Assembly (NCBI RefSeq): GCF_000374165.1
Contig: NZ_KB893670.1
Span: forward strand, 374,229-429,810
Direction: 5' to 3'
Length of the DNA: 55,582 bases
DNA from: Parafrankia elaeagni
GTDB taxonomy: Bacteria > Actinomycetota > Actinomycetes > Frankiales > Frankiaceae
A program made the translations under genes and the position numbers. Shown one piece after another: positions 831 to 19,374 of the stretch (positions within the stretch are counted from its first letter, which is position 1; each line of letters begins with the position of its first letter). Under the pieces are notes generated by a model. That model saw only the letters and a list, made by a program, of their open reading frames with translations, was not told the origin of the DNA and did not search any database.

Positions 831-1296
831 CGTCGATGAGCGAGTTCACCGACTGGGTCAGCTCGTCCCAGCCGCCGCTGCCGCCGAGGTCGTCCATCCG
901 CATGGTGAGACGTCCGTCACGCCGGATGACCTTGCTGACCTTGGTCACCTCGCGGGTCTGCCGCTCCTGCATCCCGGCGAGCTCGTTGAAGCGGCGCGCG
1001 ACGTCGCCGCCGATCCCGTCCCAGATCGGCAGCCGGGCACCGAAATCCCCCTCGACCAGCTGGTCCAGCCCGGCGAGCAGGGCTGGGAGCAGCATGTCCA
1101 CCCCACCGGAGGCAGCAGCGGCCGCCAGGCCGCCCGCACCGCCCGCACCGCCGGCGGGCCCGTTCGAAGCGGCCTCGGCCGACCCGTGGGTGGCGTCACC
1201 CGCCGGCAGCGTGGCCGTGGAACCGTTCGGAGGGCCGCCGGAATCCCCGGTACGCACGGGCGACTGCTGGCGGTCAGGGCTCGCGTCGGCGCTCAT
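1..1296 (-). CDS. HAMP-repeat sensor histidine kinase, N-terminal part (cut by window edge)
   Basis: The frame is open from an ATG at 1296 to the window edge, giving 432 residues. An AGGAG ribosome site lies about 6 nt before the ATG. After an Ala/Gly-rich stretch (about residues 49-66) comes a HAMP-like segment and then about three near-identical 92-residue repeats, each containing [27 protein letters not shown] and SVN. This architecture is typical of group III (Nik1-type) hybrid histidine kinases, where a HAMP ladder precedes HisKA, HATPase and often receiver domains; those lie outside the window. No membrane segment is seen, so a cytoplasmic sensor is likely. It is divergent from the phosphatase gene at 1695. 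The kinase assignment is inferred from the HAMP ladder because the catalytic part is not visible. Confidence 0.85.
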
Positions 1297-3977: not shown

Positions 3978-4053
3978 TCCCGGTCGGGGGGATTGGCCGG
4001 CCGGCATGTGGGTAGAACCGTGCGGGATGTCCCCGTTCTAGACGTGGTGATTG

Positions 4054-4518
4054 ATGAGTTCGATGTCGGTTCCGATGAGCGTTGTCCGGCGGGCAGGCTG
4101 GTGCCGCCTTCCGGCCACGCACATCGTCGCGGAGCTGCCCTACCTCCCGTCAGCCGTGCCGCAGGCACGACGGGTGCTGCGTGAGTGCCTCGACATGACG
4201 GCCCTGCCCGAGGAGAGCAGCGCCACGGCGGAGCTGCTGGTGAGCGAGCTCGTGACGAACGCGGTCAAGTACGGCAGCCCGCCGGTGTGGCTTCTGGTCG
4301 AGCTCCGGCCGGGCCTGGTCCACGCCTCGGTCTCCGACACCTCGACAACGCTGCCGCACCGCCGCGAGTCCGCGCCCGACTCGGAGGGCGGCCGCGGGCT
4401 GCTCATCCTGGACGCCCTGGCCGCGAGCTGGGGCGCGGTGTCGGTGGAGTCCGGGAAGTACCTCTGGTTCGACCTCTCCGTGCCGCTGCTCAAGCCCCCG
4501 GCCGGCCAGATCCGCTAG
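4054..4518 (+). CDS. RsbW-like ATP-binding protein (anti-sigma type)
   Basis: A 154-residue HATPase_c_2 protein with N box SELVTNAVKYG and G box GGRGLLILDALAASWG, the normal length of a stand-alone RsbW-like kinase. It resembles the N-terminal domain of the preceding fusion protein, so both may act on one switching circuit. The start is uncertain: TTG 4051 and ATGs at 4054, 4063 and 4075 are in frame and none has a strong ribosome site. It lies 76 nt downstream of the phosphatase gene on the same strand and is probably co-transcribed with it. Confidence 0.85.
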   Translation: MSSMSVPMSVVRRAGWCRLPATHIVAELPYLPSAVPQARRVLRECLDMTALPEESSATAELLVSELVTNAVKYGSPPVWLLVELRPGLVHASVSDTSTTLPHRRESAPDSEGGRGLLILDALAASWGAVSVESGKYLWFDLSVPLLKPPAGQIR

Positions 4519-4600: not shown

Positions 4601-5965
4601 TCACGGCTCGGGCGAGCTCGCATCGACGACGACCCGGTCGGCGCGGGGGTGGCCGAGGAACTCGTGCATCGCGAACTCGTAGCCGTAGGCCCCCGCCATC
4701 GGGAAGACCACCACGTCACCGGCACGCAGCCGGTCGATGGTCACGTCCCGGGCCAGGGTGTCCTCCGGGGTGCACAGCTCCCCCACCACGGTGACCGGCC
4801 CTCCGGCCACCTCCGGCCGGGGCCAGCCGTCCGGCCAGGTCTCGCGGGGCACGACAGCGAAGTTGTGGACGATCTCCCAGGATGTCGGTAGCTGGAAGTG
4901 GTGAATACCGCCCCGCAGCACCGCGAACGCCTCGCCATGCACCCGCTTGACGTCGGTCACCTCGGCGGCGTACCAGCCACAGTCCGCTGCGAGCGCCCGG
5001 CCCGGCTCGAAGATCACCCGGGCCCCCTCCGGTGGGCACAGCCGGGCCAGCCCGTCGCCGAACAGGTCCAGGTCGAAGGGGCGCTCGCCGCGCCGGTCCG
5101 GCTCGAAGGGCACGCCGAGGCCACCGCCGACGTCCACCACCCGCAGCGCGAAGCCCCCCTGACGGGCCGCCCGGGCCGCGAAGTCCAGGCACCAGCGCAC
5201 GTACTCCAGGTGCGCCCGCGCGTCGAGGTTCCCCGACACCGCATGGACGTGGAAGCCGACCAGCTCGACCCCCGGCAGCGACCGGGCCACCTCGACCGCC
5301 GCCGGGACGGCGCTCTCCTCGATCCCGAACGCGGTGGGACGCCCACCCATCCGGAGCGCGCCGCCGAGCCCGACCTGGGCGGGGTTCACCCGCAGCGCGA
5401 CGGCCGCCCGGCGCCCGGCCTCGGTGGCCACCGCGTCGATGCGTCGGAGCTCCAGCACGCTCTCGGCGTTGAGGACGTCCACCACCGGCCCGGCAGAGCC
5501 CGGCGGGCCGCCCAGCAGGGCCCGCAACAGGGTCGTCGACTTGCCCGGCCCGGAGGCCACCAGGCCCGCCCGCCGACCGCCCGGCGGGGCGGCGCGGGCA
5601 ACGGCGCCGGCCGCCAGCGCGAGCTCACGCGCCGAGGAGACCTCGAAGCCGTCGACTCCACCAGCGCCGCCGGCCCCACCCGAGCCGCCGACCGCGCCCA
5701 TGCCGCCCGTGCCGGTGCCGCGCAGCAGGGCGTCGAGGACGGGCGGGAAGGAGTTCGCCTTGACGGCGAAGTACAGGTCCGCCCAGGCGGGCAGGTGCCG
5801 GCGCAGGTCCGCGGCGGCCTGCGCCGCCACGGCCGGGTCGTACAGGTAGGTCGCGATCTCCCCACGCTCGGCGGGCCAGGAACGCAGCCAGCCGAGGATC
5901 CCGAGGGGCAGCTGGCCGGGGCCGAGGGCTCGCAGCGGGGCTGCCGACACGGGAAGGTCCAGCAC
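4601..5965 (-). CDS. Fold-type III PLP decarboxylase, SbnH/PvsE-like (siderophore)
   Basis: This 454-residue protein belongs to the alanine racemase-fold decarboxylases related to diaminopimelate decarboxylase. The PLP lysine is in YFAVKANS (about residues 64-71). Other marks are FEVSSARELALA, FHVHAVSGN, VVDVGGGLGVPF, IFEPGRAL and GELCTPEDTLA (about 395-407). The GTG start at 5965 is chosen for GGAGGAG just upstream. A Gly-rich insertion sits at about residues 83-105. Homologues occur in NIS siderophore clusters: SbnH decarboxylates the citryl-diaminopropionate intermediate of staphyloferrin B, and PvsE has a like role in vibrioferrin. Divergence from the siderophore operon points to decarboxylation of an assembled intermediate; the substrate is inference. 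It could also act on free 2,4-diaminobutyrate or another basic amino acid. Confidence 0.85.
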   Translation of the reverse strand: MLDLPVSAAPLRALGPGQLPLGILGWLRSWPAERGEIATYLYDPAVAAQAAADLRRHLPAWADLYFAVKANSFPPVLDALLRGTGTGGMGAVGGSGGAGGAGGVDGFEVSSARELALAAGAVARAAPPGGRRAGLVASGPGKSTTLLRALLGGPPGSAGPVVDVLNAESVLELRRIDAVATEAGRRAAVALRVNPAQVGLGGALRMGGRPTAFGIEESAVPAAVEVARSLPGVELVGFHVHAVSGNLDARAHLEYVRWCLDFAARAARQGGFALRVVDVGGGLGVPFEPDRRGERPFDLDLFGDGLARLCPPEGARVIFEPGRALAADCGWYAAEVTDVKRVHGEAFAVLRGGIHHFQLPTSWEIVHNFAVVPRETWPDGWPRPEVAGGPVTVVGELCTPEDTLARDVTIDRLRAGDVVVFPMAGAYGYEFAMHEFLGHPRADRVVVDASSPEP

Positions 5966-6349
5966 GTTGACGCCCCCTCCTCCGACCGACCGGGCCCCTC
6001 TGACACCCCGCAGAAATGACGGGGCCACACCGGAGACATCGGCAGAATCGCTCGCGTGGGCGCCCTGCAACCGTAATCTTACAGTCGGCAACAGTCTCGC
6101 CTGGTTCGTCCTTCGTTCAGTTTGCCTCTCACGCCCCTGCCGGCCCGCCATCGCGGCACCGCGGCACCGCGGCACCGCGACAGCAACTCGATTTCGACAT
6201 CCCGACATCCCGACCTCAGCACCGACAGCACTCCGGTGCAGCACCGCAGGGGCAACAGTGAGGAAAAGCTCGGCGCATCCACACGCCGGAGATCGGGACT
6301 CATCGAAGTTAGGCTTCCCTGATCCGGCTCGCTCGAAGGGAAGTCGCCC
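5966..6349. other. Divergent promoter region of the siderophore cluster
   Basis: This 384-nt region separates the decarboxylase and aminotransferase genes. It is richer in AT than its flanks and contains three tandem GCGGCACC units around 6152-6175 and the iron-box candidate at 6304-6322. No gene is supported. It should hold promoters for both transcripts. Confidence 0.6.
6304..6322. promoter_or_regulatory. Candidate iron box (IdeR/DmdR/DtxR operator)
   Basis: CGAAGTTAGGCTTCCCTGA matches the actinobacterial IdeR/DmdR consensus TTAGGTTAGGCTAACCTAA at 13 of 19 positions, including the full TTAGGCT core. It ends 28 nt before the GTG of the aminotransferase, where a repressor would block transcription. 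The siderophore genes downstream make iron control expected. No second box was seen close to the divergent decarboxylase start. Confidence 0.6.
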
Positions 6350-7762
6350 GTGAAGATGATCTCTCCGGCCGACACCGAGGCCGGTCCCGGCAACACGGAT
6401 CCGGCTGCAGCGGCCGCCATCCTGGCCCGCCAGGCCACCCGGGAGTCCGCGGCCCGCACCTACGCCCGGTCGCTGCCGATCGTCCCGGTCGGCGCCCACG
6501 GCTCCTGGATCACCGGCGCCGACGGGCGACGCTACCTCGATTTCCTCGCCGGCGCCGGCACCCTCGCCACCGGGCACAACCACCCGGTGGTGGTCGAGGC
6601 GATCGAGCGGGTCCTGCGCTCCGGCGCGCCGCTGCACGTGCTCGACCTCGCCACCCCGGAGAAGGACGCCTTCACCGAGGAGCTGGTCGCCACCCTGCCC
6701 GTGGGCCTGCGAGAGGACCCGCGCCTGCTGTTCTGCGGCCCGACCGGCGCCGACGCCGTCGAGGCCGCCCTCAAGCTCGCGCAGACCGTCACCGGCCGCC
6801 AGACGGTGCTGGCGTTCACGGGCGCCTACCACGGGATGACAGCCGGCGCGCTCGCGGTGACCGGCAAGGTCGCCGTCAAGGAACCGCTGCCGGCTGCCGG
6901 CGCGGTCGCCCGGCTGCCCTTCCCGTATCCGTACCGGTGCCCCTTCGGGGTGGGCGGGCCGGCCAGCGCCGAGATCTCCGCCCGTTTCGTCGAGCGCCTT
7001 CTGGACGACCCCTGCGGCGGGATCACCAGCCCGGCGGCGATGATCCTCGAGGTCGTGCAGGGTGAGGGCGGTGTCGTGCCCGCGCCGGACACCTGGCTGC
7101 GCGCCATGCGCGAGGTGACCCGCCGCCGGGGCATCCTGCTCATCGTGGACGAGGTGCAGACCGGCGTGGGCCGCACCGGCCGTTTCTGGGCGTGCGAACG
7201 CGCCGGCGTGGTGCCCGACATGCTGGTGATGTCGAAGGCGATCGGCGGTGGCCTGCCGCTGGCCGTCGTCGCCTACCGTGCCGAGCTGGACACCTGGGCC
7301 CCGGGTGCCCACGCGGGGACCTTCCGTGGCAACCAGCTCGCGATGGCCGCCGGGCGGGCGACGCTGCGGCTGGTCCGGGCGCAGGAGCTCAGCGAGCGCG
7401 CGGCCGTCGTCGGCGACCGGCTCCTGGCCGGCCTGGCCCAGCTCGGGCGAGGCACCGCGATCGTCGGTGACGTCCGGGGCCGCGGCCTGATGCTCGGCCT
7501 CGAGATCGTCGACCCGGAGGCCGCCGCGGACCGGACGGGTGCCCGCCCGGCCGACCCGCACCGCGCGGCGGCGATCCGTGACGCCTGCCTGGCCCGCGGA
7601 TTGATCATCGAGCTCGGCGGCCGGCACGACGCCGTGCTCCGCCTGCTGCCGCCGCTGACGGTCTCCGACGAGGAGGCCGAGCTCGCCCTGGGGATTCTCG
7701 CGGAGTCGCTGGAGGCGGAAACCAGCGCGGGCACGCGGGCCGGCACGCCGCAGGCCCGATGA
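6350..7762 (+). CDS. L-2,4-diaminobutyrate:2-oxoglutarate aminotransferase (siderophore)
   Basis: A 470-residue class III aminotransferase. It should convert aspartate semialdehyde plus glutamate to L-2,4-diaminobutyrate, the RhbA/Dat step of 1,3-diaminopropane siderophores. Visible features are CGPTGADAVEAALKLA, GAYHGMTAGALAVT, the cofactor aspartate in LLIVDEVQTGVGRTG and the PLP lysine in MSKAIGGGLPLAVV (about residue 295). The start is GTG 6350 with AAGGGAAG seven nt upstream. Its stop overlaps the next start (ATGA), so it opens a translationally coupled operon behind the candidate iron box. Ornithine or GABA aminotransferase activity cannot be excluded from sequence alone, but the adjacent decarboxylase supports diaminobutyrate. 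Confidence 0.9.
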   Translation: MKMISPADTEAGPGNTDPAAAAAILARQATRESAARTYARSLPIVPVGAHGSWITGADGRRYLDFLAGAGTLATGHNHPVVVEAIERVLRSGAPLHVLDLATPEKDAFTEELVATLPVGLREDPRLLFCGPTGADAVEAALKLAQTVTGRQTVLAFTGAYHGMTAGALAVTGKVAVKEPLPAAGAVARLPFPYPYRCPFGVGGPASAEISARFVERLLDDPCGGITSPAAMILEVVQGEGGVVPAPDTWLRAMREVTRRRGILLIVDEVQTGVGRTGRFWACERAGVVPDMLVMSKAIGGGLPLAVVAYRAELDTWAPGAHAGTFRGNQLAMAAGRATLRLVRAQELSERAAVVGDRLLAGLAQLGRGTAIVGDVRGRGLMLGLEIVDPEAAADRTGARPADPHRAAAIRDACLARGLIIELGGRHDAVLRLLPPLTVSDEEAELALGILAESLEAETSAGTRAGTPQAR

Positions 7763-9402
7763 CGAGGCCGGGTCACCGGCCGGCCGACGACCTGCGGGCA
7801 CTGCTCGCCGTCACCGTGGACGCCCTCGACGCCGGGCGGCGGGACCGCAGCGGCCCGTTGCCTTCCGGCGGGCCGGCGGACGTCCGGAAGGCGGCCCTCG
7901 AGGCTCTTGGCGGGCCCGGTCCGCTGCTCCCCCCGACGGGGGACGGGGAGGCCGCGGCGCTCGGCGCGCTCACCCGCATGCTGTCGGCCGGCTCGGCCGA
8001 TCCCGCGGACCCGTTGTGCGCGGCTCACCTGCACTGCCCGCCGCTCACCGTCGCCGTCGCCGCTGATCTCGCGGTGAGCGCGCTGAACCCCTCCCTCGAC
8101 TCCTGGGACCAGGCTCCGGCCGGCACCACCATCGAGGCGGAGGTGCTCGCCGCGCTCGCCGACCTCGTCGGCTACGACCCGTCCCGCGCCGTCGGCACGG
8201 TGACCACCGGCGGCACGGAATCCAACCTGATGGGCCTGTTACTCGGCGGGCATGTCGCCGGACGCGCTGCCGCGCCGGCTCCCGGGAGCACCGCCGCCTC
8301 CCCCCGTGGCTGGCTCGGCCAGCTCTCGCACCACGGGCGGCACGGCGCGCGCCCAGCCGCGTCCCGCGCACCCGCGTCTCGCCCGGCCGCCGCCGCGGCG
8401 CTGCCCGTGTTCTGCTCCGCGGCCGGCCACCACTCGGTGCGCCGCGGCGCCGAACTGCTCGGGCTGCGCAGAATCGTCCCGGTGGAGGTCGACGCCGCCC
8501 ACCGGATGGATGTCCAGGCGTTGCGGTCGGCGCTGGCCCACCACCCCGGGCCGGCTCTCGTCGTCGCGACCGCCGGCACCACCGACGCGGGTGCGATCGA
8601 CCCGCTGGCGGAGATCGCCGAGCTGGTCCGCGCCCACCCGGCCCCGGTCTGGCTGCACGTGGACGCGGCGCACGGCGGGGGCGCCCTGTTCTCCCGCCGG
8701 CTCGCCGAGCGGCTGGCCGGGCTGGCCCAGGCCGACTCCGTCGCCCTCGACCTGCACAAGCTCGGCTGGCAGCCAGCCCCCGCCGGCATCTTCCTCACCC
8801 CGTCAGGCCGGGGGTGGGACCGGCTTGACGCCGAGGTCGCCTACCTGAACCCGGCCGACGAGACCCTCGCCGGGTACACCAGCCTGCTCGGGCGCTCCCT
8901 GCGCACCACCCGCCGCCCGGACGCGTTCAAGATCGCCGTGACCTTCCGCGCGCTGGGCCGGGAGCGCCTCGGCGCGATGGTCGACACCTGCCACGATCTC
9001 GCTCGGCACGCCGCCCGGGTGGTGGCCGCGGACCCGCGGCTTGAACTGGCGGCTCCGGTGGCCCTGAGCACGGTGCTGTTCCGCTACCTCCCGCCGGAAC
9101 CCGGCGAGCACCAGCCCGACACCGGCGGCGGCGCGCCGGAACACACCGGCGTCCCGCCCCGCGCGGTCCGCGCGGGCCGGCTCGACCGGCTCGACCGGCT
9201 CGACCGGCTGAATGCCGCCATCCGCACCCGGCTCCTCGAGGAGGGCAGGGCGGTCGTCGGGCGCACCACCGCCGGGCCCCACGGGGCCGTCCACCTGAAG
9301 CTCACCCTGCTGAACCCGAACGCAACCGACGCCGACGTCTCCGCCCTGCTCGCACTCGTCGCCGAGACCGGGGACCAGCTCGCCGCCGAGCGGACACCAT
9401 GA
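7759..9402 (+). CDS. L-2,4-diaminobutyrate decarboxylase (group II PLP decarboxylase)
   Basis: A 547-residue group II PLP decarboxylase of the RhbB/Ddc kind. The product should be 1,3-diaminopropane, the backbone of schizokinen-type siderophores. Motifs in order: HLHCPP, TTGGTESNLMGLL, VATAGTTDAGAIDPL, HVDAAHGGG (about 300-307) and the PLP lysine in LDLHKLGWQP (residue 334). An Ala/Arg/Pro-rich insertion (about residues 172-214) and a triple 9-bp repeat at 9181-9207 (LDRLDRLDR) look like expanded loops. It overlaps the aminotransferase by 4 nt and the next gene by 4 nt. Confidence 0.9.
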   Translation: MTRPGHRPADDLRALLAVTVDALDAGRRDRSGPLPSGGPADVRKAALEALGGPGPLLPPTGDGEAAALGALTRMLSAGSADPADPLCAAHLHCPPLTVAVAADLAVSALNPSLDSWDQAPAGTTIEAEVLAALADLVGYDPSRAVGTVTTGGTESNLMGLLLGGHVAGRAAAPAPGSTAASPRGWLGQLSHHGRHGARPAASRAPASRPAAAAALPVFCSAAGHHSVRRGAELLGLRRIVPVEVDAAHRMDVQALRSALAHHPGPALVVATAGTTDAGAIDPLAEIAELVRAHPAPVWLHVDAAHGGGALFSRRLAERLAGLAQADSVALDLHKLGWQPAPAGIFLTPSGRGWDRLDAEVAYLNPADETLAGYTSLLGRSLRTTRRPDAFKIAVTFRALGRERLGAMVDTCHDLARHAARVVAADPRLELAAPVALSTVLFRYLPPEPGEHQPDTGGGAPEHTGVPPRAVRAGRLDRLDRLDRLNAAIRTRLLEEGRAVVGRTTAGPHGAVHLKLTLLNPNATDADVSALLALVAETGDQLAAERTP

Positions 9403-11348
9403 CGGAGGCCGGGCGGACGTCCGCGGCGGAGGCGGAGGCGGAGGCCGCGGCGGTCGTGACCGAGGTGCTGCTCCGCTGCTGGGCCCGCGAGGTCGGGCTC
9501 GGCGGCGCGGTGGACGGACCACCGGCGCCGGGGCACCTGCGGATCGCGCTGCCCGCAAGCAGGCTCGACATCGACGTGGAGCTGCGGTACCGCTCGCCCA
9601 CCGGCTGGCACCGGTTCGGCCCACCCGGCCTGCACGGCACGCCACTGGACGTCGGCCCACTCGCCGCGCTCCTCGTGCGGGAGGCGGCGGGCACCGCGAT
9701 CTCCCCGGCGGCGGCCCGCACCGCGCTGGCCCGCATCCTCGCCTCCACCGCCTGGCTCGCCCGCTTCATCGCCGCCCGCGCAGCCGGGTCGGTGGCCCGG
9801 GCTGACGGCACCGCCGGAGACAGCACCGCCGGGGACGGGAGCGCCGGGGACGGGAGCGCCGCGCCGTTCCTCGTCGCCGAGCGTGCCCTGATCACCGGTC
9901 ACCCGTTCCATCCGGCGGCGAAGAGCCGCGGGGAGGCGACCGACGCGGAGACGGCGCGGTACTCCCCCGAGCTGCACGGGTCGTTCCCGTTGCACTGGTT
10001 CGCCGCGCACCCCGACGTCGCCCGGCACGGGGGTCCCGATCCGGCGCCGCTGCTGGCGTCCCTGCGCGGCACCGGCGGACCGCCCGCGCCGAAGGGGTAC
10101 CTGGTGCTGCCGGCCCATCCCTGGCAGGCACGGGCCATCCGGGACCGCCCGGCCCTCGCCGGCCTGCTCGGCGACGGCCGGCTGGTGGACCTGGGAGCGT
10201 CCGGCCCGCGCTGGTACCCGACGGCGTCGCTGCGCACCGTCTGGCGGCCGGACGCACCGGTGATGCTGAAGCTGTCGCTCGGTATGCGGATCACCAACTC
10301 GCGCCGGGAGCTGCATCCCGACGAGCTCGCGCTGGGCGCCGAGATGGCCCGGTTCGCCCGGCTGGAGGCGGACGGCTGGCTGCGGCGGCACCACCCGCGG
10401 TTCCGGCTCGTTCCGGAGCCGTCGTGGATGTCGGTGCGTGGCGGCGGGCTGGAATGCTCGCTGCGGACGAATCCGTTCGGGCCCACCGACCGGGTGGTCT
10501 GCGCCGGCACGCTGATCGCGGACCGACCCGACCTCGTCCCGGGGGCGCCCGGCCGGTCCCGGCGGTCAATGCTCGCCGATCTCCTCACCGGTCTCACCGG
10601 CGGTCTCACCGGCCTCGGCATCGGCGTCGGCGTCGGCGTCGGCGGCAACGACGGCGGCGGCGGCCCGGGGGCGCCGGGCGTCGCTGCCGGCGGCGGGCGG
10701 GCGGCAGCGGACGCGGGGGCGGTCGCCCGCGAGTGGTACGCCCGTTACCTGCGGGTTCTCATCGTCCCGGTGCTCGACCTGTACCTGCGCCGCGGGACGG
10801 GCCTGGAGGCGCACCTGCAGAACACCCTGGTGACGCTGGACGAGCAGGGCTGGCCGGTCGCCGGCTGGTACCGCGACAGCCAGGGCTACTACCTGGCCGC
10901 CTCCTACGCCGACACCGCCCGCCGGCAGGTGCCCGGGCTCGGCGAGGGGCTGCCCGCCGTCTTCGACGACACCCTGGTCGAGCAACGCGTCCTCTACTAC
11001 ACAGTGGTGAACAACGCACTGGCCATCGTGGGGGCGCTGGGCGCCGCCGGGCTCGCCGACGAGCACGACCTGCTCACCGTGCTGCGCGAGACCGTCGTCG
11101 GCCTGCGGGCGGGCCTGACCTCCGGGCCGAGAACGGGACTGGGAACGGCCTCGGCGTCGGGGCTGACGGCCGGCGGTGGCCTGGCCGCGCGCCGCGGCCT
11201 GCTGGACCGGCTCCTGGACGCGCCGACGCTGCCCTGCAAGGGCAACCTGCTGACGTGCGTCGACGGGCGCGACGAGCTGGTCGGGCCCGTGTCGAGCCAG
11301 TCGATCTACGTGGAGATTCCCAATCCGCTGCTGGAGGTCCGCCCTTGA
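9399..11348 (+). CDS. IucA/IucC-family NIS siderophore synthetase (first)
   Basis: A 649-residue NIS synthetase. The family adenylates a carboxylic acid, usually citrate, and condenses it with an amine or hydroxylamine. Visible motifs: GHPFHPAAKSRGEATD (about residues 167-182), LPAHPWQ (about 235-242), GMRITNSRRELHPDE (about 295-309), LQNTLV and CKGNLLTC (about 612-619). A low-complexity GLTGGLTG / GVGVG stretch (about 10580-10645) interrupts the middle. It sits between the decarboxylase and the monooxygenase and overlaps both by 4 nt. Whether it acts first or second in assembly is not visible; the presence of a second family member implies two successive condensations. Confidence 0.9.
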   Translation: MTEAGRTSAAEAEAEAAAVVTEVLLRCWAREVGLGGAVDGPPAPGHLRIALPASRLDIDVELRYRSPTGWHRFGPPGLHGTPLDVGPLAALLVREAAGTAISPAAARTALARILASTAWLARFIAARAAGSVARADGTAGDSTAGDGSAGDGSAAPFLVAERALITGHPFHPAAKSRGEATDAETARYSPELHGSFPLHWFAAHPDVARHGGPDPAPLLASLRGTGGPPAPKGYLVLPAHPWQARAIRDRPALAGLLGDGRLVDLGASGPRWYPTASLRTVWRPDAPVMLKLSLGMRITNSRRELHPDELALGAEMARFARLEADGWLRRHHPRFRLVPEPSWMSVRGGGLECSLRTNPFGPTDRVVCAGTLIADRPDLVPGAPGRSRRSMLADLLTGLTGGLTGLGIGVGVGVGGNDGGGGPGAPGVAAGGGRAAADAGAVAREWYARYLRVLIVPVLDLYLRRGTGLEAHLQNTLVTLDEQGWPVAGWYRDSQGYYLAASYADTARRQVPGLGEGLPAVFDDTLVEQRVLYYTVVNNALAIVGALGAAGLADEHDLLTVLRETVVGLRAGLTSGPRTGLGTASASGLTAGGGLAARRGLLDRLLDAPTLPCKGNLLTCVDGRDELVGPVSSQSIYVEIPNPLLEVRP

Positions 11349-12709
11349 CGCCGTCGCCCCCGGACGAGGCCGGCCCCTACGACCTGCTCGGGGTGGGGCT
11401 GGGGCCGTTCAACCTCTCCCTCGCGGCGCTGGCCGACGGCGTGCCCGGGCTGCGGGCGGTGTTCCTCGAGCAGGAGGACGAGTTCCGCTGGCATCCGGGC
11501 CTGCTGCTGGACGGGACGACACTGCAGGTGCCGTTCCTCGCCGACCTGGTGACGTTGATCGACCCGACCAGCCGGTGGTCGTTCCTGTCCTACCTGCGCG
11601 AACACGACCGCCTGTTCCGCTTCTACTTCTACGAACGGTTCCACCTGCCGCGCCGCGAGTACGACGACTACTGCCGCTGGGCGGCGCACGCCCTGGCCTC
11701 CACCCGGTTCGGGAGCCGGGTGGAGGCGGTGCGCTGGCAGCCGGGCAGCGGGCTGTTCGAGGTGACGGTGTGGGACGGGCAGCCGCGCACCCTCACTGCC
11801 CGCAACCTGGTGCTCGGGGTCGGTACCGAGCCGGTCGTGCCGGCGGCGTTCGCCGGGCAGCGCGGGCCGCGGGTGTTCCACTCGGCCGACTACCGGCAGG
11901 CGCGCGGCCGGCTCGCCGGGGCGGGGCACGTCACGGTCGTCGGGTCCGGGCAGTCCGGCGCCGAGGTTTTCGCCGACCTGCTGCGCGCGCAGCCCACCTC
12001 CGGGCACGCGCTGGCCTGGATCACCCGGACACCGGCCTTCGCTCCCATGGAGTACTCCAAGCTGGGGCTGGAGCAGTTCACCCCCGACTACGTGCGCTAC
12101 TTCCACGGGCTCGACCAGCGGACGAAGGACGCCCTCGTCCCCGGCCAGTGGCAGCTGTACAGGGGCATCGACGGGCAGACGATCGCCGAGATCTACGACC
12201 TTCTCTACGAGCGCAGCATCGGGGGGGCCGAGCCGGACGCCCTGCTGCTCCCGAACGTCACCATCGAGGCGGTCGAGGCGGTCGAGGCGGGTGAGGCGGG
12301 TGAGGCGGGCGTCGGCCCGGCTGGGCAGCGCAGCTACCTGCTGCGCTGCCGGCACGGCGATCAGCACCGCGCGTTCACCGTCGGCACCGACGCGGTGGTG
12401 CTCGCCACCGGCTACGCGCCTCGCCGCCCGACCCTGCTGGACCCGGTCGCCGACCTGCTCGACCTGGACTCCGGCGGCCGTTTCCGGATCGACGAGCGCT
12501 ACCGCCTCGCGACCGCGGACGAGCTCACCGGACGGATCTACGTCCAGAACGCCGAACTGCACACCCACGGAGTGGGGGCGCCCGACCTCGGGCTGGGCGC
12601 CTGGCGGGCGGCGGTCATCCTGGACGACCTGACCGGTGGCCGGGCGCACCGGTTGCCGCGCCCGGCGGCCTTCACCACCTTCGGCACCCCGAGCGGAGCC
12701 GGCCGGTGA
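11345..12709 (+). CDS. FAD-dependent lysine/ornithine/diamine N-monooxygenase (IucD/RhbE-like)
   Basis: A 454-residue flavin N-hydroxylase. It has the FAD site GVGLGPFNLSLA near the N-terminus, the NADPH site VVGSGQSGAEVF (about 198-209), LATGYAPRRP (about 354-363) and the family C-terminal motif QNAELHTHGVGAPDLGLGAW. In this setting the likely substrate is 1,3-diaminopropane or an acylated form, giving the hydroxylamine of a hydroxamate ligand. The start is TTG 11345, overlapping the previous stop; no better codon lies nearby and the N-terminus begins just before the FAD motif. Five 9-bp units at 12266-12310 encode an EAV/EAG run. It overlaps the next gene by GTGA. Confidence 0.9.
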   Translation: MTPSPPDEAGPYDLLGVGLGPFNLSLAALADGVPGLRAVFLEQEDEFRWHPGLLLDGTTLQVPFLADLVTLIDPTSRWSFLSYLREHDRLFRFYFYERFHLPRREYDDYCRWAAHALASTRFGSRVEAVRWQPGSGLFEVTVWDGQPRTLTARNLVLGVGTEPVVPAAFAGQRGPRVFHSADYRQARGRLAGAGHVTVVGSGQSGAEVFADLLRAQPTSGHALAWITRTPAFAPMEYSKLGLEQFTPDYVRYFHGLDQRTKDALVPGQWQLYRGIDGQTIAEIYDLLYERSIGGAEPDALLLPNVTIEAVEAVEAGEAGEAGVGPAGQRSYLLRCRHGDQHRAFTVGTDAVVLATGYAPRRPTLLDPVADLLDLDSGGRFRIDERYRLATADELTGRIYVQNAELHTHGVGAPDLGLGAWRAAVILDDLTGGRAHRLPRPAAFTTFGTPSGAGR

Positions 12710-14607
12710 GCGCCGCGACGGACGGCGAGCTGTGGCGCACCGCCGGACTCGCGCTGCTGACCCGGCTGATCGCCGAGCTGGCGTACGAGGAGCTCCTGGT
12801 CCCCGTGCCCGACCCCTCGGCCGGCACGGCGGCGCGACGTCCGGACCCACCGCCGGTCGGCCGAGGTGCCCCGGCGCCGTACCGGATCGACTGCGGGGCG
12901 GCGGCCTACACGTTCACCGCCCGCCGGGGCACCTTCGGCAGCTGGTGGCCGGACGCCGGAACACTGCGGCGCGGCGGCGGGCCGGCCTGGGACCCGGTGC
13001 GTTTCCTCCTCGACGCACGGGAGGCACTCGGCTGGTCGGGCGACGTCCTGGCGGAGGTCGTGCGCGAGGTGACGGCCACCCAGCGCGCGGACGTCCAGCT
13101 GTTGCGCGGGGCGCTGCCCGCGGGCCGGCTCGCCGACCTGTCGTACGTGGAGCTCGAAGGCCATCAGTCCGGGCATCCCTGCATGGTCGCGAACAAGGGG
13201 CGGCTCGGCTTCGGCGCGACGGACGCCGCCCGCTACGCCCCGGAGTCCCGGGCGCCGTTCCGGCTGCGCTGGCTGGCGGCCGAAGCCGGCCTGGCTCGGC
13301 TCGTCACCGCGGAGGGCCTGGCCCCGGGCGCGCTGTACGAGGCCGAGCTGCCGGCGGGTACCAGGGCGGAGTTCACCGCGGCCCTGCACGCGGCTCTGAT
13401 CGACGCGGGCCTGGCCGACGCGGGTTCCGTCTCGGCGGCGGCGGACCGGTACCGGTGGCTGCCGGTCCACCCGTGGCAGTGGGAACACGTGGTGGTGCCA
13501 CTGTTCGCCGCCGAGCTGGCCACCGGGACGCTGGTCGATCTCGGCGAGGCACCCGACCGGTACCTGCCGCTGCAGTCCGTCCGGACAGTGGCGAACGTCG
13601 ACACACCGGGCCGGCGAGACGTCAAGCTCGCCCTCATGATCCGCAACACCCTGGTCTGGCGCGGGATGTCCGCCGACGACGCGGACGCCGGCCCCGTGGT
13701 CTCCTCGTGGCTGACACGGCTGGCGCGGGAGGACCCGGAGCTGCGGGCCACCGGCGTCATCCCGCTGGCGGAGGTCGCCGGTGCCACCGTGGCCCATCCG
13801 GCCTACGACGCCGTGGCGGACGCCCCGTACCGCCTGCACGAGCTGCTCGGGGTGCTGTGGCGGGAGCCGGTCGCCTCCCACCTGGCGCCCGGCGAGCGGG
13901 CCCGGACGATGGCCGCGCTGCTCACCGTCGGAGCAGACGGGCAGGCGCTCGTGACCGAGCTCGTCCGGCGCTCCGGGCTGGCCCCGGAGCAGTGGCTCAC
14001 GGCGTTCCTGCGGGCTCTGCTCCCCCCGCTGCTGCACTACCTGTACGTGTACGGCGTGGCCTTCACCCCGCACGGCGAGAACGTGATCTGTGTGTTCGAT
14101 GCGGACGAGACCCCGCGGCGCATCGCCGTCAAGGACTTCGGCGCCGACATCGACCTGGTCGAGGGCGACTTCCCGGAGCGCGCCGCTACCGACGGCGGGG
14201 CCGGTGCGCTGTGCCGGCACTGGCCGGCCGGGCTGTTGGCGCACTCGGTGCTGTCGGCGGTGTTCGCGGGGCACTTCCGGTACTTCTCGGTGCTGGCCGC
14301 CGACCACCTGGGCATCACCGAGGAGCGCTTCTGGTCCCTCGTGCGGGACACCGTGCTCGGCTACCAGCGGACCCACCCCGAGCATGCCGCGCGCCACGCA
14401 CTGATCGACCTGATGGGCCCGGTGTTCGCCCGCGTCTGCCTGAACCGGGAGCAGCTCGCCGGGGCCGGCTTCCACGACCGCGCTGGGCGGGACGCCCAGT
14501 TCGACGTCCTGCACGGCACGGTGGCGAACCCGCTCGCCGCCATCGCGCAGCACTCCGGCGACGCGCAGCAGTCCGGCGACACGCAGCAGTCCGGCGACAC
14601 GCTGTGA
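12706..14607 (+). CDS. IucA/IucC-family NIS siderophore synthetase (second)
   Basis: A 633-residue NIS synthetase, distinct from the first. Motifs: GHQSGHPCMVANKGRLGF (about 152-169), LPVHPWQWEH (about 252-261), LALMIRNTLVWRGM, HGENVICVFD (about 456-465) and KDFGADIDLVEGDFPE (about 475-490), all typical of the IucA/IucC and FhuF-like regions. It begins at GTG 12706, overlapping the monooxygenase stop, and its own stop overlaps the next ATG by one base. The last 18 codons are three 18-bp repeats (QQSGDT-like, 14548-14601), probably a disordered tail. It likely attaches the second arm to the citrate or other acid core. Confidence 0.9.
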   Translation: MSAATDGELWRTAGLALLTRLIAELAYEELLVPVPDPSAGTAARRPDPPPVGRGAPAPYRIDCGAAAYTFTARRGTFGSWWPDAGTLRRGGGPAWDPVRFLLDAREALGWSGDVLAEVVREVTATQRADVQLLRGALPAGRLADLSYVELEGHQSGHPCMVANKGRLGFGATDAARYAPESRAPFRLRWLAAEAGLARLVTAEGLAPGALYEAELPAGTRAEFTAALHAALIDAGLADAGSVSAAADRYRWLPVHPWQWEHVVVPLFAAELATGTLVDLGEAPDRYLPLQSVRTVANVDTPGRRDVKLALMIRNTLVWRGMSADDADAGPVVSSWLTRLAREDPELRATGVIPLAEVAGATVAHPAYDAVADAPYRLHELLGVLWREPVASHLAPGERARTMAALLTVGADGQALVTELVRRSGLAPEQWLTAFLRALLPPLLHYLYVYGVAFTPHGENVICVFDADETPRRIAVKDFGADIDLVEGDFPERAATDGGAGALCRHWPAGLLAHSVLSAVFAGHFRYFSVLAADHLGITEERFWSLVRDTVLGYQRTHPEHAARHALIDLMGPVFARVCLNREQLAGAGFHDRAGRDAQFDVLHGTVANPLAAIAQHSGDAQQSGDTQQSGDTL

Positions 14608-16061
14608 TGATCGGCGGTGGCGGGGCGCCCGGGGATGGCGGGGCCCCGGAGGACGCCGGGACGCCCACGGGCACCGCCCGGGTGACGGAGCTGCTCGACA
14701 GCGGCACCGTGGACGAGGTGATCGTCGCCGTGCCGGACCTGCAGGGGCGGCTGGTCGGCACGGGACTGTCACCGGAGTACTTCCGCGAGCAGGTGCGGTC
14801 CGGCTCCGACGGGGTCGGCGCGTGCACCTACCTGTACGCCGTCGACGTCGAGATGCGGACGGGGCCCGGCTACGCCTACGACCCCTGGCAGGGCGGGTTC
14901 GGTGACCTGCGCCTGCACCCCGACCTGACGACGCTGGGCCGCGCGCCGTGGCGGCCGCGCTCGGCGGTCGTCATCGCGGACGCCGTCTGGCCGGACGGGA
15001 CCGCCGTCGAGGCCGCGCCGCGGACGGTGCTGCGCCGCCAGCTGGACCGGTTGGCCGCCCGGGGACTGCGGGCGTTCGCCGGCACCGAGCCCGAGTTCCT
15101 CGTCTTCGAGGAGACCTACCGCGAGGCCGCCCGGCAGGACTACGGGAGGCTCACCCCCGCCAGCAGCTACGGCATCGACTACGCGCTGGCTGGCACCGAG
15201 CGGATGGACGATCTCGTCCGGGCCATCCGGACGGCGATGGCGGCGGCCGGCGCACGGGTGGAGTCGGCCCGGGCGGAGGTGCATCCGGGCCAGTTCGAGA
15301 TCGTCTTCGGCTACGACGAGGCGCTGCGCACCTGCGACCGGCACGCGCTCTACAAGACCGCCGCGAAGAAGATCGCCGGCGCGGCCGGCCACGCCCTGAC
15401 CTTCATGGCCAAGTACGACGAGGGCGAGGGAAACTCCTGCCACGTGCACCTGTCCCTGCGCGGCGACCAGGGGGAGCTCGCCTTCGCCGCCCCTGGTGCA
15501 CCCGATGGCCCTGGTGCACCCGAGGGCCCTGGTGCACCCGAGGGGGCCATGTCAGACCTGATGCGGTGGTTCGTGGCCGGCCAGCTCGCCTGCCTGGCCG
15601 AGTTCACCCTGCTCTACGCGCCGACCGTGAACTCCTACAAGCGGCTGGCACCGGGCGCCTTCGCCCCGACCGGGATCTCCTGGGGCCTGGACAACCGCAC
15701 CTGCGCGATCCGGGTGGTCGGGCACGGCGCCTCGCTGCGGATCGAGCACCGGGTACCCGGCGGCGACGCCAACCCCTACCTGGCACTCGCCGGGATGATC
15801 GCCGCCGGCCTGCACGGGATCGAGCACCGGCTGCCGCTGGAACCACCGCGCACCGGTAACGCCTTCGCCGCCCCCGACGTCCCGCGGCTGCCCACCACCC
15901 TGGCCGCCGCGGCCCGGGCGTGGCGGGAGAGCGCCACCGCCCGGGCCGCGTTCGGCCAGCCGATCGTCGATCACCTTGCGCAGGCCGCCGACGTCGAACA
16001 GGCCGCCTTCGACCGGGCCGTCACAGACTGGGAGCGCCGGCGTTGTTTCGAGCGGTTCTGA
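14607..16061 (+). CDS. Glutamine-synthetase-like (gamma-glutamylamine-type) ligase in the siderophore operon
   Basis: A 484-residue GS-fold protein closest in look to the PuuA/GlnT/FluG branch. The metal, glutamate and ATP motifs are intact: GTEPEFLVFEE (about 159-169), AEVHPGQFEI (about 224-233), HVHLSL (about 278-283), NSYKRL (about 342-347), LDNRTCAIRV and EHRVPGGDANPYLALAG (about 381-397). A three-unit 18-bp repeat adds a Gly/Ala/Pro loop (about residues 296-313). Its ATG overlaps the preceding stop, so it is part of the siderophore operon. PuuA relatives join glutamate to amines through an ATP-made gamma-glutamyl phosphate. Glutamylation of diaminopropane or of a pathway intermediate is therefore a fair inference, not shown. 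A free-standing polyamine or ammonia assimilation role is the alternative. Confidence 0.85.
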   Translation: MIGGGGAPGDGGAPEDAGTPTGTARVTELLDSGTVDEVIVAVPDLQGRLVGTGLSPEYFREQVRSGSDGVGACTYLYAVDVEMRTGPGYAYDPWQGGFGDLRLHPDLTTLGRAPWRPRSAVVIADAVWPDGTAVEAAPRTVLRRQLDRLAARGLRAFAGTEPEFLVFEETYREAARQDYGRLTPASSYGIDYALAGTERMDDLVRAIRTAMAAAGARVESARAEVHPGQFEIVFGYDEALRTCDRHALYKTAAKKIAGAAGHALTFMAKYDEGEGNSCHVHLSLRGDQGELAFAAPGAPDGPGAPEGPGAPEGAMSDLMRWFVAGQLACLAEFTLLYAPTVNSYKRLAPGAFAPTGISWGLDNRTCAIRVVGHGASLRIEHRVPGGDANPYLALAGMIAAGLHGIEHRLPLEPPRTGNAFAAPDVPRLPTTLAAAARAWRESATARAAFGQPIVDHLAQAADVEQAAFDRAVTDWERRRCFERF

Positions 16062-18492
16062 CGTCGGGCACGCTTCCGGCCGGCGCACTGCCCGCGGGAT
16101 CACCGGCGGCGGCCATGGCGGACGCGGCGGGAGCGGCGGGAGCGGCGGGAGCGCCACCCTCGCTCAGGCCGATCCGTGCGTGCAGGGCCCGCAGCGGCTT
16201 CGGCGCCCACCAGTTGGCGTCCCCGGCGACCCGCATGAACGCGGGCACGAGCACACCGCGGATCAGCGTGGCGTCCAGCAGGATCGCGAGCGCCGTGCCC
16301 AGGCCGAACATCTGCATGAAGCGGACGGACGAGGTCGAGAAGGCCACGAAGGTCACCGCGAGCAGTGCCGCGGCGGTGGTCACGAGACGTCCGGTACGGG
16401 CCAGGCCGGCGGCGACCGCCTCGGCGTTCGACGCACCCGCGTCATGCTCCTCCTTGATCCGGGAGAGCAGGAAGACCTCGTAGTCCATGCTGAGCCCGAA
16501 GGCGATGCAGAACAGCAGCACCGGCATGGACGTGTCGAGCGGGCCCGGGGTGAAGTCGAACAGCCAGCCGAGATGCCCGTCCTGGAAGATCCAGACGGCG
16601 ACTCCGAAGACAGCAGTGAGCGTGATCCCGTTCAGCACGATCGCCTTCAGCGGCAGCAGCACACTGCCGGTGAACAGGAACAGCAGCACGAAGGTGGTCA
16701 GCGAGATCAGCCCGATGGCGAGCGGGAGACGGTCGGCGATCGTGTCCTTGCCGTCGACGAGGACAGCGGACGGCCCGCCGGCGAGCGCCTCGGTCCCGGC
16801 CGGGGCGGCGGTGTCGCGGATCTGGTGGACGAGGGCCTGAGCCTCTTCCGAATGCGGTTCCACGGACGGCACGACGCGCAGGTAGGAGGCGTTCTCGGCC
16901 GTGTGGCGGCTGGCGGGCTCCCTCGGTGGCGCGACCGTCCGCCCGTCGATCAGGCTGCCGGCGGAGCTGTCGACCCGGGCGACGCCGTCCAGTTCGGAGA
17001 GGGTGGCGGCGTAGCTGGCGACCTGCTCCGGTCCGGTGCGGTCGGCCGGGCCGGTCACCACGACGACGACGGCCCCCGCGTCGTTGGAGGAGAAGTCCGA
17101 GCGGAGGACGTCACCGACCGCCCGGCTGGAGGCGTCCGCGCGCAGCACCCGGTCGTCCGGGGTGCCGAACTCGACGTGCAGGAAGGGGGCGGCCAGTACC
17201 AGCAGCAGGGCGACGACAGGCAGGCCGGCGAGCAGCGGACGGCGCATCGTGACGGTGGCCACCCGGCGCCAGAACGGCGACTCGACCACCTCCCGCGGCA
17301 CCTCCCGCCCCGCAGCAGCGCCCGTGCCCGCGGCCGCTCCCGTTCCGGCTCCGGCTCCGGCTCCGGTCGCAGCGTCGGCCCGCGCCGCGGCATCGGCAGC
17401 TCGGCGGCGGCGGAACAGCCCGATCAGGCCACCGACCCGCAGCGCGTTCACCCGGGATCCGAGCAGCATCAGCACGGCCGGCAGGACGACCACCGCGGCG
17501 ACCACGGCCACGGCGGTGACCGCGATGCCGGCGTAGGCCATCGACTTGAGGAAGTACGGCGGGAAGACGAGCATCACCGCGAGCGCGACGATCACCGTCG
17601 CGCCGCTGAACAGGATGGTGCGCCCGGCGGTGCGCACCGTCACCGTCACGGCCTCGGCACGGTCCCGGCCGGCCGCGAGCTCCTCGCGGAAGCGGCTGAC
17701 CATCAGCAGCGCGTAGTCGATCCCGAGGCCCATGCCGAGGGCCGTCGTCAGGTTGACGGCGAAGATCGACACATCGGTGAGGCTGCCGACCACCGAGAGC
17801 ACGGCGAAACCGCCGAGGATGCCGAGCAGCCCGATCCCGAGAGGGAGGAGCGCGGCCACCAGCCCTCCGAAGGCGATGATCATCAGCACGGTCGTGATCG
17901 GGATGGCGATCGACTCGGCGATGGCCAGGTCGGCCCCGACCTGGCCGTTGATGTCCTCGCCGACCGTCGCGGCGCCGCCCGGGCGCACCGTGACCGGGGC
18001 GGCGGCTCCGCCCGGTGGGCCCTGGTCGGCCTGGCCTGCCTCGTAGGCGTCCTCGAAGCGGGCCACCAGGTCCTCGGTGTGGTCGTCGTCCACGCTGGCG
18101 ACGACGAGCGCTGCGCGGCCGTCGTCGGAGCGCAGCGGCGGGGCATCCGTCCAGTAGGACGAGACGTTCGTGACTCCGGGTTCGCGGGCCAGGTCCTCCG
18201 CGAGCTCCCGGCCCGCCCGGGCCACGGCGGGATCATCGACCGCCCGCCCGTCCGGGCCGGTCACCTCCGGCCGGGCGGTCACCAGGAGGACGAGGTTCGG
18301 CTCGCCGCCGAACTTCTCGTCCACCAGGTCCGCCGCCCGGCTGGAGGGTGAGGCGGGGTCGTCGAAACCGTCCGACTCGAGCTTGCCGAAGGCGCCCATG
18401 CCCACCACTCCGGCACCCAGCAGCGCGACAAGGGTGAGGAGCAGGACAAGTCGTGGCCGACGGGTGACGATCTTCGCTACAACAGTGAACAC
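16021..18492 (-). CDS. MMPL/RND-family membrane exporter
   Basis: An 823-residue MMPL transporter. It has an N-terminal membrane segment after RRPRLVLLL, a large extracellular loop (about residues 40-190), a membrane block containing GLGIDYALLMVSRFREE, a second loop, and a C-terminal block with GLSMDYEVFLLSRIKEE, the usual twofold MMPL layout. The start is GTG 18492 with GGGAGG just upstream; longer readings would run through the operator region. The stop lies inside the 3' end of the glutamine-synthetase-like gene, giving a 41-nt convergent overlap. Its divergent neighbour is a TetR regulator. MMPL proteins export lipids, drugs and, in mycobacteria, siderophores, so export of the adjacent siderophore is a reasonable but unproved role. 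Confidence 0.9.
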   Translation of the reverse strand: MFTVVAKIVTRRPRLVLLLTLVALLGAGVVGMGAFGKLESDGFDDPASPSSRAADLVDEKFGGEPNLVLLVTARPEVTGPDGRAVDDPAVARAGRELAEDLAREPGVTNVSSYWTDAPPLRSDDGRAALVVASVDDDHTEDLVARFEDAYEAGQADQGPPGGAAAPVTVRPGGAATVGEDINGQVGADLAIAESIAIPITTVLMIIAFGGLVAALLPLGIGLLGILGGFAVLSVVGSLTDVSIFAVNLTTALGMGLGIDYALLMVSRFREELAAGRDRAEAVTVTVRTAGRTILFSGATVIVALAVMLVFPPYFLKSMAYAGIAVTAVAVVAAVVVLPAVLMLLGSRVNALRVGGLIGLFRRRRAADAAARADAATGAGAGAGTGAAAGTGAAAGREVPREVVESPFWRRVATVTMRRPLLAGLPVVALLLVLAAPFLHVEFGTPDDRVLRADASSRAVGDVLRSDFSSNDAGAVVVVVTGPADRTGPEQVASYAATLSELDGVARVDSSAGSLIDGRTVAPPREPASRHTAENASYLRVVPSVEPHSEEAQALVHQIRDTAAPAGTEALAGGPSAVLVDGKDTIADRLPLAIGLISLTTFVLLFLFTGSVLLPLKAIVLNGITLTAVFGVAVWIFQDGHLGWLFDFTPGPLDTSMPVLLFCIAFGLSMDYEVFLLSRIKEEHDAGASNAEAVAAGLARTGRLVTTAAALLAVTFVAFSTSSVRFMQMFGLGTALAILLDATLIRGVLVPAFMRVAGDANWWAPKPLRALHARIGLSEGGAPAAPAAPAASAMAAAGDPAGSAPAGSVPDVRTARNNAGAPSL

Positions 18493-18500
18493 GGGACCCT

Positions 18501-18569
18501 CCCGAGAGAAGCAGTCTCTTGGGAGAACAGTGTTCGCAGAGATCGACGCCACCGTCAAGAGCAGTGTTC
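18501..18569. promoter_or_regulatory. Candidate TetR operators between the MMPL and TetR genes
   Basis: GAACAGTGTTC at 18525-18535 is a palindrome apart from its centre, and GAGCAGTGTTC at 18559-18569 differs by one base. The copies are 34 bp apart, about three helical turns. A further inverted repeat with 9-nt arms and one mismatch lies at 18501-18523, next to the exporter's ribosome site. The position between divergent exporter and TetR genes fits autorepression and control of the pump. Confidence 0.55.
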
Positions 18570-18612
18570 TCGAAAGTTGACACCGATCGCGACCGGGACC
18601 CAGCATGGTGCG

Positions 18613-19374
18613 GTGACCCATCCCGTCCCACGTCGCGAACGCATCCGCCAGACGACGATCGACGAGATCAAGACGGTCGCCCACGAACAGCTCGCTGAGC
18701 ACGGGGCGGCCGCGCTCTCGCTGCGTGCCGTCGCGCGCGCGATGGGGATGACCCCGTCCGCGATCTACCGGTACTTCGACAGCCGGTCCGCGCTGATCTC
18801 CGCACTCGCGCGGGACGCCTACAGCTCACTCGCCGACACGCTGGAGGCCGCCTTCCGCGCCGCCCCCGCCGACGACCAGATGGTGCGCTGGCTGCTGGTC
18901 GCCCGGTCACACCGACGCTGGGCGAAGACGCATCCGACCGAGTACACGCTGATCTTCGGCCCGCGGCCGGCCGACCTCACCGGCCGCCCCACCGCCGTCC
19001 AGAACGAGGTGGAGCGCTCCGTCGCGGTGCTGTTCCGGTGCATGCAGGAGGTGGTCGAGGCCGGCATCGTCGACCTGGGCGTGCTGGACGCCGAGCTGTC
19101 ACCCGGCCTGCGCGCGCGGTTCCAGGAATGGGACTGCACCGACCTGGGCCCGGCCGCCGAAGCCGCCTGCATGCTGGTGTGGACGCAGCTGCACGGCCTG
19201 ATCGCGCTGGATCTGTTCGACCATCTGCCGCCACCGCTCGCCGACTCGGCCGAGCTGTTCGACCAGCAGATGATCGGCGCGCTGGTCCGGATCGGCCATC
19301 GCGGCCCGGTCGACTTCGCCGAGGTGATCAGGCGCGCCGATCTCACCGAACAGCACACGCTCGCACCGACCTGA
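18613..19374 (+). CDS. TetR-family transcriptional regulator
   Basis: A 253-residue regulator with an N-terminal helix-turn-helix (LSLRAVARAMGMTPSAIYRYFDSRSALISAL) and a helical C-terminal ligand domain of TetR_C_13-like appearance (MQEVVEAGIVDLG). Two starts are possible: TTG 18577 and GTG 18613. I prefer 18613, because a start at 18577 would place the ribosome site inside the proposed operator. It is divergent from the MMPL exporter and probably represses it and itself. The ligand may be the exported molecule; nothing in the sequence identifies it. Confidence 0.88.
   Translation: MTHPVPRRERIRQTTIDEIKTVAHEQLAEHGAAALSLRAVARAMGMTPSAIYRYFDSRSALISALARDAYSSLADTLEAAFRAAPADDQMVRWLLVARSHRRWAKTHPTEYTLIFGPRPADLTGRPTAVQNEVERSVAVLFRCMQEVVEAGIVDLGVLDAELSPGLRARFQEWDCTDLGPAAEAACMLVWTQLHGLIALDLFDHLPPPLADSAELFDQQMIGALVRIGHRGPVDFAEVIRRADLTEQHTLAPT

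Follow-up and report, generated by a model that had tools for sequence, protein, structure and literature searches.

In schizokinen-type pathways, a CoA acyltransferase acylates the hydroxylamine, and the pathway to rhizobactin 1021 is encoded by the gene set RhbA-F. Here, we describe a cluster for a non-ribosomal peptide synthetase-independent siderophore (NIS) in Parafrankia elaeagni, located in a stretch of 55,582 nucleotides (contig NZ_KB893670.1 of assembly GCF_000374165.1, positions 374,229 to 429,810; hereafter, the window) and consisting of a six-gene operon and a divergent decarboxylase gene. The cluster resembles the schizokinen and rhizobactin 1021 systems in having a diaminobutyrate aminotransferase (DAT) and decarboxylase (DDC), a diamine N-monooxygenase (MO), and an IucA-like (NIS-A) together with an IucC/DesD-like synthetase (NIS-B), but it differs from them in that an acyltransferase of the RhbD/IucB type (PF13523) is absent, while a glutamine synthetase (GS)-like ligase (GSL) and a decarboxylase with the alanine-racemase fold (DEC) are present. 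An earlier note had read the locus as a hydroxamate-type NIS cluster with a non-standard enzyme set, and our analysis supports this reading: all seven genes are present with the families claimed, in the arrangement claimed. The note had also described the locus as a rhizobactin/schizokinen core with two genes added. The core genes are indeed there, with DDC and MO scoring below the NCBIfam equivalog cut-offs; what was overlooked is the absence of the PF13523 acyltransferase. It is most likely that the ligase and the decarboxylase take the place of this missing enzyme rather than being additions to a schizokinen core.

On balance, we think it probable that the operon directs the synthesis of a schizokinen-like citrate-hydroxamate NIS siderophore in which the hydroxamate is made by glutamate ligation and decarboxylation; we infer the chemistry, the order of the steps and the structure. 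In this model, DAT would form L-2,4-diaminobutyrate, which DDC would convert to 1,3-diaminopropane, and MO, judging by its family matches, would N-hydroxylate this diamine. GSL would then activate the gamma-carboxyl group of L-glutamate with ATP and join it to the hydroxylamine nitrogen to give N-(gamma-glutamyl)-N-hydroxy-1,3-diaminopropane, a step that would stand in for the CoA acyltransferase IucB/RhbD. DEC would strip off the glutamyl alpha-carboxyl group to leave a 4-aminobutyryl hydroxamate, and NIS-A and NIS-B would couple two such arms to citrate. A related reaction is carried out by BtrK, which decarboxylates gamma-glutamyl-S-BtrI to give the aminobutyryl product. The predicted siderophore would be schizokinen with each acetyl group replaced by 4-aminobutanoyl and would carry cationic arms (C20H38N6O9, [M+H]+ 507.277, ferric form 560.189, computed from the formula of schizokinen). 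More broadly, we incline, if only slightly, to the view that the pair of a GS-family ligase and a BtrK-like decarboxylase is portable as a module and takes over from CoA acyltransferases in the synthesis of hydroxamate siderophores, making 4-aminobutyryl hydroxamates and defining a new NIS branch in Frankiaceae, Nocardiopsis and other actinomycetes. Among the literature matches listed, none describes an ATP-dependent route of glutamate ligation and decarboxylation to siderophore hydroxamates. Likewise, the expectation that no described pathway has exactly this gene set held up, in that no characterised product is found among the matches listed in the open-licence literature.

The acyltransferase was sought with a profile that was seeded with two PF13523 enzymes and rebuilt once from its matches. 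No PF13523-type acyltransferase was found in the first 30 kb of the window, in any of 23 Frankiaceae loci or in two Nocardiopsis loci, nor in nine loci from six further genomes with the ligase cluster, and both seed enzymes were recovered as controls. Of the named synthetase loci examined, the best 80 of 582 relatives, 68 have such an acyltransferase. Among these 80, seven loci have only the ligase, 68 only the acyltransferase, none both and five neither (Fisher p for mutual exclusion 2.5e-7, not corrected for phylogeny); among the 21 loci with a monooxygenase, the corresponding numbers are seven, 12, none and two. The genomes of the last two loci (L087 and L129) encode a strong acyltransferase elsewhere (147.5 and 145.9 bits, respectively) and have no ligase at E<=1e-60.

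The ligase is of the GlnA4 type, the Streptomyces coelicolor member of which is a gamma-glutamylethanolamide synthetase according to PMC6529630. The metal, glutamate and ATP positions were taken from the same source and compared in an alignment of cluster ligases and GlnA4-like proteins that does not include SCO1613 itself. All 12 positions are identical in 26/26 cluster ligases and in 11/11 GlnA4-like proteins, and at the position of the flap glutamate of true GS (E327), 22 of the 26 have F and four have Y. Because the GlnA4 residues are kept and the flap glutamate is absent, GSL appears to be built as a gamma-glutamylamine ligase and not as a glutamine synthetase. Thus, GSL is like GlnA4 in its metal, glutamate and ATP residues and in the F at the flap position, and unlike it in belonging to a clade inside NIS operons, in its proposed hydroxylamine nucleophile, and at R222, H226 and G273. 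These three positions lie beside active-site residues and separate all 26 cluster ligases from all 11 GlnA4-like proteins; six more positions that differ (45, 233, 263, 341, 388 and 428) are less strict or farther away in sequence. In a tree of nine Frankiaceae ligases, three from the genomes G288, G295 and G316, five of the Nocardiopsis type described below and six GlnA4-like proteins, the cluster ligases form one clade against the GlnA4-like proteins with support 100/100. No NIS gene was matched within 5-18 kb around five of these six GlnA4-like proteins; L189 was viewed over 1.5 kb on each side.

DEC had been called an SbnH-type decarboxylase. By overall sequence this is correct: its best solved relatives are SbnH (6knh/6knk, 215 bits; 6knk is named as SbnH in PMC7857480) and then BtrK (2j66, 141 bits). 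According to PMC7857480, SbnH, FigC, AcsE, MccE and BtrK share a clade with diaminopimelate and D-ornithine decarboxylases, and in SbnH the residues close to the citryl carboxylates are R304, S308, W309, K347 and H379. DEC shares with SbnH, FigC and AcsE the siderophore context, and with SbnH the residues S308 and W309, but it lacks the basic citrate contacts. Specifically, R304, K347 and H379 are replaced by Q/A, E and M/L, respectively, in all 25 cluster DEC proteins aligned (18 from Frankiaceae and seven others), so that three of the five contacts of the citryl-binding set are exchanged. By contrast, six of six SbnH-like relatives, five of which adjoin NIS synthetase genes, keep the R, the K and the H. 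The SbnH-like decarboxylases with intact basic contacts beside NIS synthetases (L210, L211, L212, L214 and L216) probably belong to staphyloferrin B- or achromobactin-like carboxylate clusters. With BtrK of butirosin synthesis, DEC has in common the LCTPED motif, the SbnH clade as given in PMC7857480 and the proposed conversion of a gamma-glutamyl to a 4-aminobutyryl group; it differs in that the substrate of BtrK is a carrier-protein thioester, while that proposed for DEC is a small hydroxamate, and the similarity to BtrK is lower. K70 (in AVKAN) and C399 (in LCTPED) are invariant in the 11 Frankiaceae DEC proteins aligned.

Far from being confined to this strain, the cluster is common to 24 of 36 Frankiaceae genomes. 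NIS-B (E<=1e-20) is found in 24 of them, and GSL (E<=1e-85) and DEC (E<=1e-50) are found in exactly these 24 and in none of the remaining 12. In the fetched Frankiaceae loci, GSL is present in 23/23 and DEC in 17/23, the other six being short or cut contigs; because DEC lies on a different contig in the genomes of these six loci, its linkage to the cluster is not shown for them. The gene order is kept in relatives and, therefore, the arrangement is not due to chance. Among 358 genomes of the class outside Frankiaceae, DEC scores above 360 bits in six (G217, G288, G295, G316, G349 and G391), in each of which it lies in or beside a cluster with the ligase. Ligase, DEC and NIS-B occur together in these six clusters and in two named Nocardiopsis loci, which are joined in trees by G217, G349 and G391 to give five loci of Nocardiopsis type (L085, L086, L193, L199 and L215); in L199, DEC lies just beyond the stretch examined. 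Each of these five loci encodes two type C synthetases as well as a GNAT between DEC and DDC (PF00583 in L085), and G288, G295 and G316 retain NIS-A. Genes for FecB- and FecCD-type uptake proteins adjoin the cluster in L085. The clusters of the two loci of Protofrankia type (L054 and L055) lack DDC and have DEC in reversed orientation; a protein with PALP and CBS domains is encoded between DEC and DAT (2163-3551 in L054 and 16257-17645 in L055). We considered whether DEC substitutes for DDC in these two loci. A genome search, however, showed that G023, G024 and G027 encode DDC-like proteins with 60-63% identity away from the contig of the cluster. DDC has, therefore, been relocated in G023 and G024; in G027, the cluster stops at the edge of its contig.

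Several observations weigh against the proposed model. NIS-A was not found in the five loci of Nocardiopsis type, all of which, like the G295 cluster with its similar gene between DEC and DDC, carry the extra GNAT gene, and DAT was seen in no ligase cluster outside Frankiaceae; the product in Nocardiopsis must differ from the one proposed here. As to the ligase, GlnA4 is known for ethanolamine, and the use of an alkylhydroxylamine would be an extrapolation from it. The decarboxylase is overall closer to SbnH than to BtrK and retains two citrate contacts of SbnH, and the CTPED motif could be an ancestral feature of the decarboxylase family. Moreover, the exclusion counts are not independent, since most of the loci with the acyltransferase are from Streptomyces kin, and 56 of the 68, in which no monooxygenase scores above 300 bits, may represent a different pathway. 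A tree of the synthetases (40 rows, made with a quick method and including 17 of the 68 acyltransferase loci) has a branch with SH-aLRT support of 100 that separates all 16 ligase-associated NIS-B rows from the 17 acyltransferase-associated rows, two rows from loci with neither gene and the second synthetase of the five Nocardiopsis-type loci. This split counts in favor of the proposed model, but it also means that only a few independent changes lie behind the exclusion, and because the loci are related and the tree needs so few changes, the Fisher p overstates the case. Finally, of the five loci with neither gene (L087, L116, L129, L139 and L156), the genome follow-up covers L087 and L129, and the search for an acyltransferase in the Frankia genomes was aimed at the PF13523 family.

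Which other reactions could the same genes support? There is a modest chance that the ligase attaches the gamma-glutamyl group to the free amino end or acts on the diamine ahead of its N-hydroxylation, so that DEC would yield an aminobutyryl amide and an NIS synthetase would acylate the hydroxylamine with citrate, giving a product of different connectivity. To our knowledge, there is no parallel for NIS synthetases coupling citrate to a hydroxylamine, which counts against this possibility, as does the fact that the ligase occupies the place of the absent hydroxamate-forming acyltransferase. In its favor, the polyamine ligases GlnA2, GlnA3 and PuuA glutamylate plain polyamines, as stated in PMC8998196, and the Nocardiopsis loci, with two type C and no type A synthetases, suggest that the coupling chemistry may vary. 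A smaller chance, in our estimate, attaches to the synthesis of ordinary schizokinen, with the acetyl group supplied by an acyltransferase encoded elsewhere and the ligase and decarboxylase being tailoring or bystander genes. L087 and L129 suggest that the acyltransferase can sit outside the cluster, and a search of 21 genomes with the ligase cluster for PF13523 (E<=0.001) gave matches over the cut-off in 11, including the genome of the window (G000, G001, G007, G017, G023, G024, G027, G288, G295, G316 and G397), and matches only below the cut-off in five (G005, G012, G217, G391 and G396). However, the remaining five (G003, G019, G020, G022 and G349) contain the cluster but gave no match at this threshold, and ligase, DEC and NIS-B are either all present or all absent in 36/36 Frankiaceae genomes at the thresholds used. 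Also, the single PF13523 protein of the P. elaeagni genome scores best with models of AAC(6') aminoglycoside acetyltransferases, below their cut-offs, as do the best PF13523 proteins of G001 and G024, these being the three of the 11 genomes on which the models were run. It is encoded on contig 130 (7.2 kb), where nothing but a short-chain dehydrogenase, and no siderophore gene, was recognised beside it, and it is, therefore, a weak candidate for an acetyl supplier.

Two further explanations concern one enzyme each. That DEC takes a citryl-amino acid as its substrate, like SbnH, FigC or AcsE, so that a mixed carboxylate-hydroxamate siderophore arises independently of the ligase, is distinctly unlikely: the overall similarity to SbnH and the conserved S308 and W309 speak for it, while the loss of all three basic contacts, one of them by a change from Lys to Glu, in proteins whose SbnH-like relatives keep them, makes SbnH-like citrate binding unlikely even with two of the five contacts kept. 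In addition, the gamma-glutamyl group would be the only free alpha-amino acid expected after DDC has acted, and the gamma-glutamyl hydroxamate of our model thus fits the tight pairing of DEC with the ligase. We regard it as highly improbable that the ligase is a housekeeping GlnA4 for ethanolamine or ammonia assimilation that entered the operon by chance, although its catalytic residues match GlnA4 and GSL-like proteins are widespread (207/394 genomes of the class at E<=1e-85). The cluster ligases form a clade of their own, differ at R222, H226 and G273 from GlnA4-like proteins and, in G295, G316 and G217, are accompanied by a second copy; a plain GlnA4 was, therefore, rejected as an assignment.

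The features are listed in Table 1. All seven genes were checked with Pfam and NCBIfam, and five of them against solved structures. The two synthetases of the cluster score 181 and 240 bits against a Pfam cut-off of 25, which places the cluster among NIS systems, and a family search found no other IucA/IucC synthetase in the genome (G000; 7.59 Mb, 135 contigs). For MO, the nearest solved relatives are 6xbb (named "Monooxigenase"), 5o8p (desferrioxamine synthesis) and the putrescine N-hydroxylase 7us3, and its best NCBIfam model is TIGR04439 (histamine N-monooxygenase), with a score below the cut-off of that model. The start of DEC (GTG 5965) was picked by homology, and GSL starts at GTG 14604 or ATG 14607. 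In the order DAT-DDC-NIS-A-MO-NIS-B-GSL (6350-16061), the genes overlap by four bases at their junctions (one base before GSL if ATG 14607 is used) and are, therefore, taken to form one operon.

Table 1. Coordinates of the cluster, its neighbours in the window and the PF13523 protein encoded elsewhere in the genome
Feature	Position	Strand	Assignment	Matches and remarks
DEC	4601..5965	-	alanine-racemase-fold pyridoxal phosphate (PLP) decarboxylase	PF02784/PF00278; divergent to operon
Iron box	6304..6322	+	putative DtxR/IdeR/DmdR site	46 bases 5' of DAT start, between the divergent genes
DAT	6350..7762	+	L-2,4-diaminobutyrate:2-oxoglutarate aminotransferase, class III	PF00202; TIGR00709, 520.5 bits (cut-off 401.6)
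DDC	7759..9402	+	L-2,4-diaminobutyrate decarboxylase (PLP), proposed product 1,3-diaminopropane	PF00282; best NCBIfam RhbB NF052646, 294.5 bits (below cut-off 900)
NIS-A	9399..11348	+	IucA-like (type A) synthetase	PF04183 and PF06276; best solved relative IucA 5jm7
MO	11345..12709	+	diamine N-monooxygenase, Lys/Orn type	PF13434, 372 bits
NIS-B	12706..14607	+	DesD/IucC-like (type C) synthetase	PF04183, 240 bits; best solved relatives DesD, then IucC
GSL	14604..16061	+	GS-like gamma-glutamylamine ligase, GlnA4 type, proposed to form the hydroxamate	PF00120, 303 bits
MMPL	16021..18702	-	MMPL-family transporter	3' of cluster
TetR	18577..19374	+	TetR regulator	divergent to MMPL
SpoIIE	1695..3977		SpoIIE phosphatase with GAF and HATPase	5' of cluster
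HATPase	4051..4518		small HATPase protein	5' of cluster
HAMP	4..1296	-	protein with repeated HAMP domains	window start; long open frames on the opposite strand too
AAC(6')-like	G000 contig 130, L240 3010..3654		AAC(6')-like GNAT acetyltransferase	

The putative iron box is the best site for the DtxR/IdeR consensus in the 55.6-kb window (13/19; the next distinct site scores 12). It probably controls both the operon and the divergent gene. Among the relatives in which DAT is visible, 16/17 have a site scoring 13-16/19 within 220 bases 5' of DAT, at a distance of 45-51 bases from its start in 13 of the 16 and of 112, 220 and 206 bases in L049, L054 and L055, respectively, where the start was set by script; the exception is L045 with a best score of 9. 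Random 330-base pieces from these loci score at least 13 in 38/3000 cases, some of which probably include the site itself. The MMPL transporter is a possible exporter of the system: its gene adjoins the cluster in 21/23 Frankiaceae loci, the remaining two being short contigs, and was unmatched in the ligase clusters outside Frankiaceae, including those of Nocardiopsis. The SpoIIE and HATPase genes are matched in many relatives.

Siderophore formation in Frankia was reportedly described by Boyer et al. in 1999, and Deicke et al. are said to have profiled Frankia metallophores in 2019. Parts of the cluster are already in print, because PMC6624747 mentions, in its survey of genomes, a siderophore monooxygenase and a diaminobutyrate aminotransferase in all studied Frankia genomes except those of cluster 4. 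If the model proposed here is correct, hydroxamates can arise by ATP-dependent ligation of glutamate followed by decarboxylation, and the biosynthetic toolbox would gain a ligase for cationic hydroxamates. A recurrent type of NIS cluster in actinomycetes would then be explained, and a predicted structure, together with exact masses, would become available for the NIS siderophore that is conserved in most Frankiaceae.

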